Assembly: GCF_001083795.1 (NCBI RefSeq)
Contig: NZ_LAVK01000014.1
Span: 1 to 45,219 of the forward strand
Reading direction: 5' to 3'
Length of the DNA stretch: 45,219 nucleotides
Origin: Streptomyces sp. SBT349
GTDB taxonomy: Bacteria; Actinomycetota; Actinomycetes; Streptomycetales; Streptomycetaceae
Below are positions 37,914 to 42,432 of this stretch, piece after piece (the stretch's first letter is position 1; each line of letters starts with the position of its first letter). Position numbers and translations under genes: made by a program. The notes beneath the pieces are model-generated. The model made no database searches, had not been told where the DNA came from, and saw only the letters and a list, made by a program, of their open reading frames with translations.

Positions 37914-37947
37914 GCGGCGCCCCCGGCCGCCCCGTTCCGGGCCAACC

Positions 37948-37963
37948 TCAGAACGAGCTCTGA
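37948..37963. promoter_or_regulatory. Inverted repeat upstream of the MNIO unit
   Basis: TCAGA-N6-TCTGA lies 71 bp before the DUF692 start, in the 120-bp gap after ppk2. It is a candidate operator, next to a CCGCGG-CC-CCGCGG palindrome-like stretch. No regulator gene is beside it. Confidence 0.35.
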
Positions 37964-38034
37964 ACCCGCGGCCCCGCGGTTCCCCCCGTGTCGGAAGGGG
38001 ACAACACTGGCACGACGGACAACGGGGAGGCGCC

Positions 38035-38868
38035 ATGGGGCGATTGGGGACGGGGATCGGGTGGAGACCCGATATCGCCGAGGGGATCGAGGAGTTGCCC
38101 GGCATCGACTGGGTCGAGGTGGTGGCGGAGAACGTGTGCGCCGACCACCTGCCGGAGAGCCTGGCGCGGCTGCGCCGGCGCGGCACGACCGTCGTGCCGC
38201 ACGGCGTCTCGCTCGGGCTCGGCGGGGCGGAACGGCCCGCGCCGGGGCGGCTGGCGGCGCTGGCGCACGTGGCCGAGGCCCTGGACGCGCCGCTGGTGAC
38301 GGAGCACATCGCGTTCGTCAGGGCGGGCGGGCCGCTCACCGGCACCCGGCGCATCGAGGCCGGGCACCTGCTGCCGGTGCCGCGCACCCGGGACGCGCTG
38401 GACGTGCTGTGCGAGAACGTCAGGATCGCGCAGGACGCGTTGCCCGTGCCGCTGGCGCTGGAGAACATCGCGGCGCTCTTCGCCTGGCCGGGCGAGGAGA
38501 TGACGGAGGGCCGGTTCCTGACCGAGCTGGTGGAACGCACCGGCGTCCGGCTGCTGATCGACGTCGCCAACCTGCACACGAACCACGTGAACCGGGGCGA
38601 GGACCCGGCCGCCGCGCTCGATGCGCTGCCGCTGGACGCCCTCGCCTACGTGCACGTCGCCGGAGGGGTGGAGCGGGACGGGGTCTGGCACGACAGCCAC
38701 GCCCACCCCGTTTCGCCCCAAGTGCTGGGCGTGCTGGAGGAGTTGTGCGCCCGGACCACACCCCCGGGGGTGCTGCTCGAACGGGACGACGCGTTCGGGC
38801 CGATGGCCGGGCTCGCCGCCGAACTGGACGCGATCAGGGCCGTGACCGACGGGGTGCGCCATGGCTGA
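38035..38868 (+). CDS. DUF692 multinuclear non-heme iron-dependent oxidase (MNIO)
   Basis: A 277-residue TIM-barrel protein of the DUF692 family, now known as MNIO (MbnB, TglH, ChrH and BufB are characterised members). Candidate iron ligands are visible at the expected places: Glu32, His56, His91, Glu143, Asp176, Asn179, His181, His207, Asp220, His222 and Glu249. Known members oxidise cysteine or nearby residues of peptide substrates into groups such as oxazolone-thioamides or thiooxazoles, often with a dedicated partner protein. GGGGAGG precedes the ATG. It overlaps the partner gene by 8 bp. The Cys-rich tail of the third gene is the likely substrate. Confidence 0.92.
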
Positions 38869-39298
38869 GACGGCGTCGAGGGGGACCGAGGTGGAGGCCG
38901 CCCGGCGGCGGCTGGCCATCGCGCAGGCCGCGCTGCTGACCGCCCTCACGGACGGGGGCCCGCTGCCCGACGGCTTCGACCGCGCCCGCATGCGCGTCCA
39001 GCGCGAGGCGCTGGCGGCCAAGCGGGTCGGCGTCCTCGCCAGGGTGGCGCCCGAACTGCCCGAGATCCTGGGCGACCGGTACCGGCCCGCCGCGCTGGCC
39101 TATGTCAGGGTCCGCCCGCTGACCGGCGGTTACCGGCAGGACGCCCTCGCCCTGGTCCGGCACCTGCTGGCGGGGGGACGCGTGCCGGAGGGCGACGTCA
39201 GGCGCCGCCTGGAGCTGTGGCTGCGCGAACGCGCCGAAGGCCCGCCGCGCGCGGGCCGCCTGACGCGCCTACTGCGCCGCCGGGCCCCCCGTGCGTGA
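38861..39298 (+). CDS. Small helical partner of the MNIO enzyme
   Basis: A 145-residue, mostly helical basic protein that I cannot place in a named family. Residues 14-30 form a strong helix ([17 protein letters not shown]). The middle contains [21 protein letters not shown] and the tail is Arg-rich. Its size, position and 8-bp overlap match the partner proteins that recruit substrate in other MNIO loci (for example MbnC, or DUF2063-type BufC), although there is no obvious sequence match. The most likely role is to bind the membrane protein encoded next and present its tail to the oxidase, which is inference. Confidence 0.72.
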
Positions 39299-39353
39299 CC
39301 GGGGCCCAGGACCCCGTACCCGTACCGGAAGACATGAAGGGCCGAGGTGACCC

Positions 39354-40274
39354 ATGACTGTTCTGATAGGCGCGGCATTCGCCGTGCTCGCGGCCGTCCT
39401 TGCCCAGGTGATCGTCGCGAACGCCCGTGTCCAGCGCACCATCTCGCCCGGCGGCACGGGCGACTGCACGCTGCACGAGGTGGCGTTCCTCAGCGGCGGC
39501 CCCGAGCGGGTGGGTGAGACGGTGATCTGCGCGATGCGCGAGAAGGAGCGCATCGCCGTCGAGGGCGGCGCGGTGCGAGTCCAGCGCCCGGTCGCCGACG
39601 ACGAGTTCGAGCGGGAGCTGCTCTCGCTGTGCGGGGACTGGGAGGCGCCGCTCTCCACGGTCCGCGCCGGCCTGGCCCGTTCGGCGCCCGTGCAGCGCGT
39701 GGGTGACGCGCTCGCGGCCCGGGGCCTGCTCTGGCTGCCGGGGCTCTACCGGCCCTGGCGGCGGGCGGCGTCGCGCAACGCGGCCGTCGGGTCGGTGGTG
39801 TTCCTCCTGGCGACCGCCCTGCTGCTGTGGTCCGACGCGCCGCCCCTGGCGGCGGGGGCGCTGATGGGCGCCGCCGCGCTCACGCTGACCGTCGGCGCCG
39901 CGCTCGCGCCGGGCCGCGGCGGGAGGCTGACCGACAGCGGGCGGGGCACGCTGGGGAGGCTGCGCCGCCGTGGCGCCGCCGCGGCCGAGGCACCGGTCGC
40001 CATGGCCTTCGCGCTGGGCGGCGCCGCCGTCCTGACGGACGTGGTGCTGCGGGACCAGCTCACCGCCGCGGCGCCGTCGGCGGCCGCGGCCGCCTCCTCC
40101 CCGGGTGGCGTGGGCTGGGTCGGCTGCGGCGCCGCGAGCGACGGCGGAGACCCGGGCGAGGAGGACGGCGGCGGGAGCGGCGGAGGCGGGAGCGGCGGCG
40201 GAGGCGGCGGCTGTGGTGGTGACGGCGGTGGCGGCTGCGGAGGAGGTGGCTGCGGCGGGTGCGGCGGCGGCTGA
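39354..40274 (+). CDS. TIGR04222-type membrane protein with Cys/Gly-rich tail
   Basis: A 306-residue membrane protein. An N-terminal membrane segment (residues 2-22) is followed by a soluble region (about 30-130) with the TIGR04222-like block CTLHEVAFLSGGPERVGETVICAM. Two more hydrophobic segments lie at about 143-185, and possibly another near 222-238. The last 57 residues are nearly all Gly, Ser and Asp, with cysteines in GCG near 254 and at 287, 295, 300 and 303. The tail ends C-G-G-C-G-G-G. It looks like a core peptide fused to a membrane anchor and a substrate for the MNIO enzyme. GAGGTGA precedes the ATG. Confidence 0.82.
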   Translation: MTVLIGAAFAVLAAVLAQVIVANARVQRTISPGGTGDCTLHEVAFLSGGPERVGETVICAMREKERIAVEGGAVRVQRPVADDEFERELLSLCGDWEAPLSTVRAGLARSAPVQRVGDALAARGLLWLPGLYRPWRRAASRNAAVGSVVFLLATALLLWSDAPPLAAGALMGAAALTLTVGAALAPGRGGRLTDSGRGTLGRLRRRGAAAAEAPVAMAFALGGAAVLTDVVLRDQLTAAAPSAAAAASSPGGVGWVGCGAASDGGDPGEEDGGGSGGGGSGGGGGGCGGDGGGGCGGGGCGGCGGG

Positions 40275-40287
40275 GGGCCGGGGCCGC

Positions 40288-40998
40288 TCAGGCCAGCGCC
40301 GCGACCAGCTCGGCCACCGGGCGGCGGCGGCCGGTGTAGAAGGGGACCTCCTCGCGGACGTGCCGCCGCGCCTCCGAGCCCCGCAGATGGCGCATCAGAT
40401 CGACGATGCGGTGCAGCTCGTCGGCCTCGAACGCGAGGATCCACTCGTAGTCGCCGAGCGAGAAGGAGGCGACGGTGTTGGCCCGGACGTCCGGGTAGCC
40501 GCGGGCCATCCGGCCGTGGTCGGCGAGCATCCGGCGGCGGTCCTCGTCGGGCAGCAGATACCAGTCGTAGGAGCGGACGAACGGGTACACGCTCACCCAG
40601 TCACGGGCGGTCTCGTCCGCGAGGAACGCCGGGATGTGCGACTTGTTGAACTCGGCGGGCCGGTGGAGCGCCATGTTCGACCAGACCGGCTCCAGGTGGC
40701 GGCCGAGCCGGGTGCGGCGGAACCGGTTGTACCCCTCCTGGAGCGCGTCCGCCGTCGCCGCGTGCCACCAGATCATGAGGTCCGCGTCGGCCCGCAGCCC
40801 CGACACGTCGTAGGTGCCCCGGACGGTGACGTCCTTGGCCGCCAGCTGCGAGAAGAGATCCTCCACCTCCGCCGAGAAGCCGGTCCTGTCCTCGGGCAGC
40901 ACGTCCCTCAGCCGGAAGACCGACCAGAGGGTGTAGCGGATGGTCTCGTTGAGCTCCTTGGCACGCTTGCCGACGGGCTTCTCGGATGCGCTTGTCAT
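40288..40998 (-). CDS. hemQ: Coproheme decarboxylase (HemQ, chlorite dismutase family)
   Basis: A 236-residue member of the chlorite dismutase fold that converts coproheme III to heme b with peroxide, the last step of the coproporphyrin-dependent route. The catalytic-Tyr region is [14 protein letters not shown] (Tyr138 or Tyr144), and [10 protein letters not shown] carries His161, a candidate axial ligand. It lacks the distal Arg environment of true chlorite dismutases as far as I can judge. It is the third gene of hemE-cgoX-hemQ on the minus strand, 18 bp after cgoX. It is convergent with the MNIO unit (13 bp apart). Confidence 0.95.
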
Positions 40999-41016
40999 GC
41001 GGCCATTCTCCCGCCT

Positions 41017-42432
41017 CTACTCCTCCGCCTCGTCGCGGGCCTCGTCCCGGGCCACCGGGGGCAGGGTCCGCAGCAGGTCGCCGACCGCGCGGGTGGCCCC
41101 CGCGATGCAGGCCGGGATGCCGATGCCGTCGTAGGCGGCGCCGCACAGGCGCAGCTCGGGGTGGCCCGCCAGGAAGCTGCGGACCCGGGCGACGCGGGCC
41201 GCGTGGCCGACCGTGTACTGGGGGAGCGCCCGGCGCCAGCGCGTGACGGCGGTGTCGACCGGCTTGGCCGGGAGGCCGGCCGCCTCGCCCAGGTCCTCGA
41301 CGGCGGCCCGCACCAGCTCGGCGTCGTCCCAGTCGAGCGGGCCCTCCTCCCCGTGGCGGCCCACCGAGGCGCGCAGCACGAACAGGTCGGGGTCCGCCGC
41401 CGCGGCCCAGTCCCACTTGCCGCTGGTGAAGGTGGCCGCCTTGATGATCCGGCCGTCCACGGCGGGGACGAGGAAGCCGCTGCCGCGCGGCAGCCGGGGC
41501 AGGTCAGCGCGGCGGAAGGCGAGGGTGATGATCGCCATCGACGCGTACTCGATGGCGGACAGCTCCCGCGCGGCGGCGGGCACCTCGGCCGCCAGCAGGC
41601 GCGCGGCGGCCCCGGCGGGGACCGCGAGCACGACGCCGTCGGCCGCGAGCGAGCGCCCGTCGCCCAGCGCCGCGGCCCAGCCGCGGGCGGTGCGGCGCAG
41701 GTTGGTGACCGCGACGCCAGTCTCCAGGGCGGCGCCCTTGGCGCGGCAGTCGGCGGTGACGGCCTCGGCCAGCGTGCCGATGCCGCCGTCGATGCCGGTG
41801 AAGACCGGCTCCCCCGGCGCCCGGTCGGCCGACTGCCGCTGGATGGCGCGGACGGCGGCCAGCAACGAGTCGTGCTCGCGCGCCATCTCGTACAGCTTGG
41901 GCACCGCCGAGCGCAGCGAGATCCGGTAGGCGTCGCCCGCGTAGACGCCGCCGAGCAGCGGCTCGACCAGGCGGTCCACGACCTCGCGGCCCATGCGTTC
42001 GGCGACGAGGGCGCCGACGGCCGCGTCCTCGCCGACCTCCAGGGGGGGCAGCTCCGCGTCGCGGGCGATCTGCGCCAGGCCCGCGTCGGAGAGCACGCCG
42101 GCCAGCGAGGCGGCCGTCGAGGGAACGCCCATGACCTGACCCTGCGGCATGGGCCGCAGCGCTCCCCTGGTCCAGATGGCGGCGCTGGTGACGGCGGGCG
42201 GGCGCAGCGCCTCGCCGAGCCCGACGGCCCGGGCCAGCTCGGTGCCCTCGGGGCGGCGCGCCAGGATCGACTCGGCGCCCAGGTCGACGCGGACGCCGCC
42301 GACCCGCCCGGTGCGCAGCTTGCCGCCGAGCCGGTCCGAGGACTCCAGCACGGTGACGCGGAGCCCTGCGGCCAGCAGGCGGTGGGCGGCGGCGAGTCCG
42401 GAGATGCCGCCGCCGACGACGATCACATGCAT
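41017..42432 (-). CDS. cgoX: Coproporphyrinogen III oxidase (HemY/CgoX)
   Basis: A 471-residue FAD enzyme of the HemY/protoporphyrinogen oxidase family. The dinucleotide-binding motif GGGISGLAAAHRLLAAG starts at residue 7, and the C-terminal FAD motif LCGAAYDGIGIPACIAG is present. In actinobacteria the HemY homolog oxidises coproporphyrinogen III to coproporphyrin III. With hemQ next to it, that reaction is the better assignment. The ATG at 42432 follows AAGGG; an in-frame ATG at 42576 would run into hemE. The intergenic gaps of 25 and 18 bp indicate one transcript. Confidence 0.93.
   Translation of the reverse strand: MHVIVVGGGISGLAAAHRLLAAGLRVTVLESSDRLGGKLRTGRVGGVRVDLGAESILARRPEGTELARAVGLGEALRPPAVTSAAIWTRGALRPMPQGQVMGVPSTAASLAGVLSDAGLAQIARDAELPPLEVGEDAAVGALVAERMGREVVDRLVEPLLGGVYAGDAYRISLRSAVPKLYEMAREHDSLLAAVRAIQRQSADRAPGEPVFTGIDGGIGTLAEAVTADCRAKGAALETGVAVTNLRRTARGWAAALGDGRSLAADGVVLAVPAGAAARLLAAEVPAAARELSAIEYASMAIITLAFRRADLPRLPRGSGFLVPAVDGRIIKAATFTSGKWDWAAAADPDLFVLRASVGRHGEEGPLDWDDAELVRAAVEDLGEAAGLPAKPVDTAVTRWRRALPQYTVGHAARVARVRSFLAGHPELRLCGAAYDGIGIPACIAGATRAVGDLLRTLPPVARDEARDEAEE

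Follow-up and report, generated by a model that had tools for sequence, protein, structure and literature searches.

The window, by which we mean the whole 45,219-nucleotide stretch of DNA that was analysed (Streptomyces sp. SBT349, contig NZ_LAVK01000014.1), contains the following features, all on the forward strand:

37946..37965, + strand: promoter motif, a variant of CTCAAAT-N4-CTCTGAA (pattern search of the window's own genome)
38035..38868, + strand: MNIO (DUF692) enzyme, 277 aa (PF05114, 259 bits; metal-ligand positions conserved)
38861..39298, + strand: very likely MNIO partner, 145 aa, all-helical, DUF2063-like (PME-type 2) (PF09836, E 0.0012)
39354..40274, + strand: TIGR04222 membrane protein, 306 aa, with a Gly/Cys tail (TIGR04222, 94.8 bits)
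40122..40271, + strand: Gly-rich low-complexity tail with Cys 258, 287, 295, 300, and 303 (sequence; similar tails in homologs)

A sequence-only reading had described this group as an MNIO enzyme, a small partner, and a membrane protein with a Cys-containing tail. The group was borne out: the genes encode an MNIO (PF05114), a small DUF2063-like protein, and a TIGR04222 membrane protein. The 8 bp overlap between the first two genes is exact, and the four Cys residues placed among Gly in the last 20 residues are Cys 287, 295, 300, and 303, with Cys258 besides. A PPK2-like gene lies 5' of the trio, and HemQ- and HemY-like genes lie 3' of it in convergent orientation (all named by reading their sequences). 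The 80 best named relatives were from Streptomyces throughout.

The first product is an MNIO by computation. It matched PF05114 with 259.4 bits (E 4.2e-77; gathering score 25), and it is the sole MNIO of its genome. We took nine positions (His/Glu/Asp/Asn) to be the MNIO metal ligands. As the sequence-only reading had supposed, the ligand set is visible: H56, H91, E143, D176, N179, H207, D220, H222, and E249 align with 3bww, and the seven from E143 onward align additionally with 8hci and 7dz9. All nine positions were invariant across 137 classified MNIOs. The enzyme fell below the cut-off of every NCBIfam MNIO equivalog that it matched, the closest being MNIO_BufB (176.7 bits; cut-off 310). 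The bufferin system (BufA, BufB, and BufC) resembles the locus in combining an MNIO with a partner and in supplying the best NCBIfam match. It differs in that the window MNIO is under the cut-off of 310, the window partner is under the DUF2063 gathering score, and the bufferin precursor is small and Sec-exported, whereas the putative substrate here is a 306-aa membrane protein. No bufferin family was among the Pfam and NCBIfam matches of the TIGR04222 protein at E ≤ 1, and only TIGR04222 exceeded a cut-off. Three other loci (L107-L109) carry a different MNIO type (PF05114, ~358–371 bits) that is followed by two genes and has no TIGR04222 nearby; this type is probably bufferin-type.

The second product scored 19.5 bits against PF09836 (DUF2063), under the gathering score of 27.2, which places it outside PME-type 1; among 40 partner homologs, 14 had DUF2063 matches at E ≤ 1 (best 3.1e-6). 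It has the placement of a PME-type 2 partner, directly after (or fused to) the MNIO and without a full DUF2063 signature; the structural criterion for this type is a relation to TglI/NGO1945. The AlphaFold2 model of the protein was all-helical (pLDDT 90.3). Foldseek returned no hit under E 1 (chain C of MbnABC stood third), and a partner profile searched against PDB sequences gave no match below E 0.2. When the model was compared with 342 realigned chains, 8hci_A (TglHI) ranked first (Z 6.1, 124 residues, rmsd 6.5) and 7dz9_C (MbnABC) fourth (Z 4.7), values that are moderate for helical proteins and no proof of a relation; aligned identities were 8% and 6%, respectively. We take 8hci_A to be TglI, because chain D is the DUF692 chain, and 7dz9_C to be MbnC. 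The partner domain and the MNIO were in one open frame at 58 of 69 loci with both visible in an MNIO-centred sample, and at 59 of 78 loci in a second, overlapping set. Because two MNIO partners stood near the top of the structural ranking and fusions were found at most sampled loci, a partner role is likely by computation, and we regard the small protein as very likely to be the MNIO partner, in agreement with the earlier proposal. TglHI and MbnBC likewise join an MNIO with a partner; their substrates are small peptides, unlike the TIGR04222 protein of the window.

The third product scored 94.8 bits against TIGR04222 (NCBIfam domain cut-off 43). It has three predicted TM helices (about 2–29, 129–159, and 164–184), and three hydrophobic stretches are usual among TIGR04222 proteins. 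Its structure model had a pLDDT of 81.5; similarities found by Foldseek (best E 0.08, to flagellar stator chains) and by VIA-align (Z up to 10.6, mostly over long helices) were not used to assign a fold. The segments that follow TM1, precede TM2, and follow TM3 had Lys plus Arg densities of 0.20–0.21, against 0.05 in the TM2-TM3 loop, and the positive-inside rule gave an N-out/C-in orientation for all 42 aligned proteins, whether tailed or not. Among the solitary relatives, 8 of 10 had no 19-residue stretch above hydropathy 1.56, and two reached 1.86. Because of the charge pattern and the solitary relatives without a clear TM stretch, the tail is most likely on the cytosolic side, which would place it within reach of a cytosolic MNIO and is opposite to the published extracytoplasmic reading.

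Open reading frames came from a codon-composition caller of our own; as it got some tails wrong, Cys tails were counted on six-frame segments. Near the MNIOs of two overlapping locus sets, 80 TIGR04222 proteins had 3–11 Cys after the domain (median 8) and 89 had 0–1. Tails with one Cys numbered four, three of them truncated close to or at the end of a contig, and the Cys tails are thus nearly all-or-none. Their SSC/GGC spacing is regular across Streptomyces. Within their last 60 residues, the proteins from four genomes outside the genus contain 5, 4, 3, and 1 Cys, and three of these tails end in runs such as CGGGGCGG. No Cys was found inside the Gly run of 18 distant, DUF2207-like relatives (below the cut-off, from genomes with no PF05114 match), three of which have a single Cys upstream of it, in a WWCYP stretch. 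Solitary TIGR04222-like tails had 0–1 Cys in 9 of 10 cases. At one contig end (L241), the TIGR04222 tail reads into SLIHISEPTRH, which we take to resemble a translated sequencing adapter; this contig end is therefore probably contaminated.

The sequence-only reading had called for a survey of co-occurrence across actinobacteria. In the phylum (296 genomes), an MNIO was present in 10 of the 11 genomes with TIGR04222 over the cut-off and in 5 of the 285 others (p = 3e-14 in a Fisher test that ignores relatedness). Outside Streptomyces, the corresponding fractions were 4/5 and 3/282 (Fisher p = 6e-7, relatedness again ignored). In those four genomes (families f3, f6, and f20) the two genes are adjacent with TIGR04222 first, which is the reverse of the window order. 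Within Streptomyces, 199 genomes divided into 170 with both, 17 with the MNIO only, 6 with TIGR04222 only, and 6 with neither (p = 7e-4, Fisher, relatedness ignored). TIGR04222 was matched in 176 of the 199, three of the 23 genomes without it (G445, G450, and G456) being assigned by their absence from the list of matches; PF05114 was matched in 187 of the 199, some of these matches being other MNIO types.

A promoter motif connects the two families further. CTCAAAT-N4-CTCTGAA was found with at most two mismatches within 400 bp upstream of the MNIO at 139 of 150 loci (121 exact), three further loci had it with three mismatches, and eight were without it. In the rest of the same loci (3.19 Mb, both strands together) there were no sites at this stringency. 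The window motif departs from the genus consensus at two positions; a relaxed pattern matched the window's own genome exactly at this site alone, and with one mismatch at one further site. Searched at no more than one mismatch, the motif was present in 51 of 61 Streptomyces genomes, and a reversed control was found in none. The ten genomes without it were the window's own, three that lack an MNIO, and six other MNIO genomes. In a further set, it was present in 20 of 21 MNIO genomes and absent from 5 of 5 MNIO-less ones; all seven MNIO-less genomes examined in the two sets were without it at this threshold. Sites in two genomes (G307 and G340) were taken as MNIO promoters without the gene being seen.

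In the search of 61 genomes, 22 motif sites lay away from an MNIO. Fifteen belong to one common element, 13 of them adjoining a convergent acetolactate-synthase-like gene. The other seven sites all carry one mismatch; three of these lie upstream of solitary TIGR04222 genes (profile E 6e-27 to 3e-14), and the remaining four do not. Among 24 copies of the common element from the two genome sets together, a solitary TIGR04222-like ORF followed 10 and none followed 14. As the motif precedes both the MNIO and some solitary TIGR04222-like genes, the two are linked independently of adjacency. We conclude that the MNIO and TIGR04222 are linked, a conclusion supported by their co-occurrence, their adjacency in both gene orders, and the shared promoter motif. 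The motif is probably an activator binding site, and the 11 bp spacing of its direct repeats suggests an activator of the OmpR type. CutR was rejected as the regulator, since its site is TAWATAAA (PMC12802291, accessible text). SCO6045, a tentative candidate for this locus, is listed a single time among regulated genes in one table (PMC4991794, accessible text); it was set aside because it could not be equated with this MNIO. About 75 bp after the motif, all 24 second-site loci (L217-L231, L352, L366, L368, and L371-L376) carry a hairpin composed of GGGGCCCGCCG, a loop containing CACGGGG, and CGGCGGGCCCC. Its loop letters are invariant, four pair positions show double changes, and a few pairs are broken. 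The hairpin pattern had no match in the fetched MNIO loci, and 601 bases around one copy had no Rfam match over the gathering score; the hairpin is possibly a small RNA or a leader element.

The linkage has clear exceptions. The MNIO-centred sample comprised 75 loci, every second of the score-sorted matches listed, and weak MNIOs are missing from it; exclusion of four other MNIO types and seven loci cut at contig ends left 64 informative loci. TIGR04222 with at least three tail Cys was found at 39 of these, untailed TIGR04222 only at 17, and no TIGR04222 at 8, so that 25 of 64 had no neighbouring Cys tail. The second set (80 loci), which overlaps the first in species and is biased toward close relatives of the window, gave 41 tailed, 23 untailed only, 9 without TIGR04222, and 7 cut (32 of 73 without a Cys tail). 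The sequence-only reading had named loss of the tail Cys in most homologs as evidence against itself; such loss was observed in a large minority, and not in most. The MNIO ligand positions were invariant in all three classes. A quick MNIO tree, on which many branches are weak, implied that tails were gained or lost roughly a dozen times (12 if L152, a broken gene with an out-of-frame artefact that we counted as untailed, is taken as tailed). Three near-complete MNIO genomes (G317, G023, and G398; 1–3 contigs) had no TIGR04222 match at E ≤ 0.05 with all candidates scored, two others (G445 and G193) had weak matches only (E 0.011 and 0.003), and the ligands were intact in all five. These data do not support an obligate unit of the three genes. 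The MNIO thus retains a function for which an adjacent tail is not required, because the ligands are invariant in every class and intact in genomes without TIGR04222, and the tail-less loci and the three genomes without TIGR04222 indicate another or a dispersed substrate.

There are converse cases as well. Four MNIO-less genomes (G341, G394, G471, and G455; three single-contig and one draft) have TIGR04222 at the same place, untailed only. G485, listed with the MNIO-less cases, has a Gly tail without Cys, and G391, a draft of 1420 contigs with no MNIO match, has a 3-Cys tail at a different place. No Gly/Ser/Cys-rich stretch was found within 5 kb downstream of the MNIO at 17 loci without a neighbouring TIGR04222. 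At four tail-less loci (L127, L140, L174, and L312; Pfam was run for L140), the gene after the MNIO encodes a DUF4142 protein whose N terminus includes a hydrophobic stretch; this protein was rejected as a Cys substrate since none of the four copies contains Cys.

The idea that such tails are substrates is not new, because it has been predicted (Antoine et al., 2025; PMC12452194). According to the accessible text of that paper, there are more than 3,500 TIGR04222 proteins, mostly in Actinomycetota, with Cys-rich C-terminal regions; their genes are frequent neighbours of MNIO genes with PME-type 2 partners; subsets of the Cys tails are predicted MNIO substrates; and one third of the TIGR04222 genomes lack an MNIO. 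A literature search for TIGR04222 found no experiment on these tails as MNIO substrates. The published TIGR04222-MNIO-PME-type 2 clusters share with ours the three protein types, the Cys-rich tails, and the mostly actinomycetotal distribution. What differs here is the MNIO-partner fusion, the promoter motif, the dispersed co-regulated genes, the cytosolic topology, and the counted exceptions, none of which was found in the accessible text of PMC12452194, where the word "promoter" is absent. The trio is a member of a published, predicted class, to which the fusion, the shared promoter, and the predicted topology add new support and the exceptions new limits.

Our preferred reading, to which we assign a probability of roughly 0.45, is that the TIGR04222 tail is modified by the MNIO in this strain. 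The MNIO and its DUF2063-like partner would form a cytosolic modification enzyme, in which the partner would bind the substrate and hold the Cys residues of its flexible Gly/Ser/Cys tail at the iron centre. There they may be oxidised, for example to a thiooxazole or an oxazolone-thioamide. The substrate in the window would most likely be the adjacent tail, cytosolic and anchored by three TM helices, and the same co-regulated enzyme of other strains might target proteins, TIGR04222-like or not, whose genes lie at other places. We infer each of the modification, its chemistry, and its possible outcome, a membrane-anchored metal-binding site. A wider version of this reading posits a genus-wide system, with one MNIO-partner enzyme, a dedicated activator, several TIGR04222-like tails modified at the cytosolic membrane surface both in cis and in trans, and a conserved structured RNA element at a co-regulated second locus; as a whole, we hold it to be doubtful.

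In a rival reading, the MNIO and its partner have a different, genus-wide substrate elsewhere, and the Cys-tail protein is a co-regulated accessory whose unmodified thiols serve in metal binding or redox sensing. The persistence of intact ligands where Cys tails, and even TIGR04222, are gone fits this reading, as do the repeated changes on the tree, weak as many of its branches are. However, Cys tails stand beside the MNIO in four families and are absent from the Gly runs of the 18 MNIO-less relatives, and the four MNIO-less genomes retain only untailed TIGR04222 at the same place; we therefore consider this reading possible, if somewhat unlikely. That the Cys residues are functionless by-products of G-rich low-complexity codons would agree with the Gly-rich composition of the tails and with GGC being one base from TGC, but it is very improbable given that the tails are nearly all-or-none, that their SSC/GGC spacing is regular, and that the Gly runs of the 18 relatives have no Cys.

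Another reading concerns the side of the membrane. The tail might lie outside, modified before or during export in the manner of a tethered bufferin (Antoine et al., 2025); in the accessible text, published models made with AlphaFold for two other members of the family are read in this way (PMC12452194). In 7 of the 42 aligned proteins, the window's included, TM3 is followed by a further hydrophobic stretch, which could form a fourth TM helix. The positive-inside rule gives the opposite side in all 42, the window model breaks the segment into short helices at 215–226 and 230–239, and a clear TM stretch is missing from most of the solitary relatives, so that we judge an exported tail unlikely.

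If modification of the tail by the MNIO is correct, oxidative enzymes of a kind familiar from small peptides would also modify membrane proteins in nearly all of the sampled Streptomyces, and they would leave a tethered metal or redox site. The strongly conserved motif, the natural MNIO-less strains, and the tail-less strains offer ways to test what the system does and what its true substrate is, and the exceptions warn that an MNIO neighbour is not automatically an MNIO substrate.

Some minor observations concern the surroundings of the MNIO loci. The loci without the motif at up to three mismatches were L112, L123, L128, L171, L248, L280, L295, and L300; a different AT-rich stretch, such as TTTATAAGG, lies upstream at L112, L128, and L171 and is perhaps another regulator's. 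The HemQ-like gene convergent to the operon (region 40288–42432 of the window) was also seen at L132, L133, L144, L149, L153, and L184, and many further loci have ORFs that match it in size and direction.
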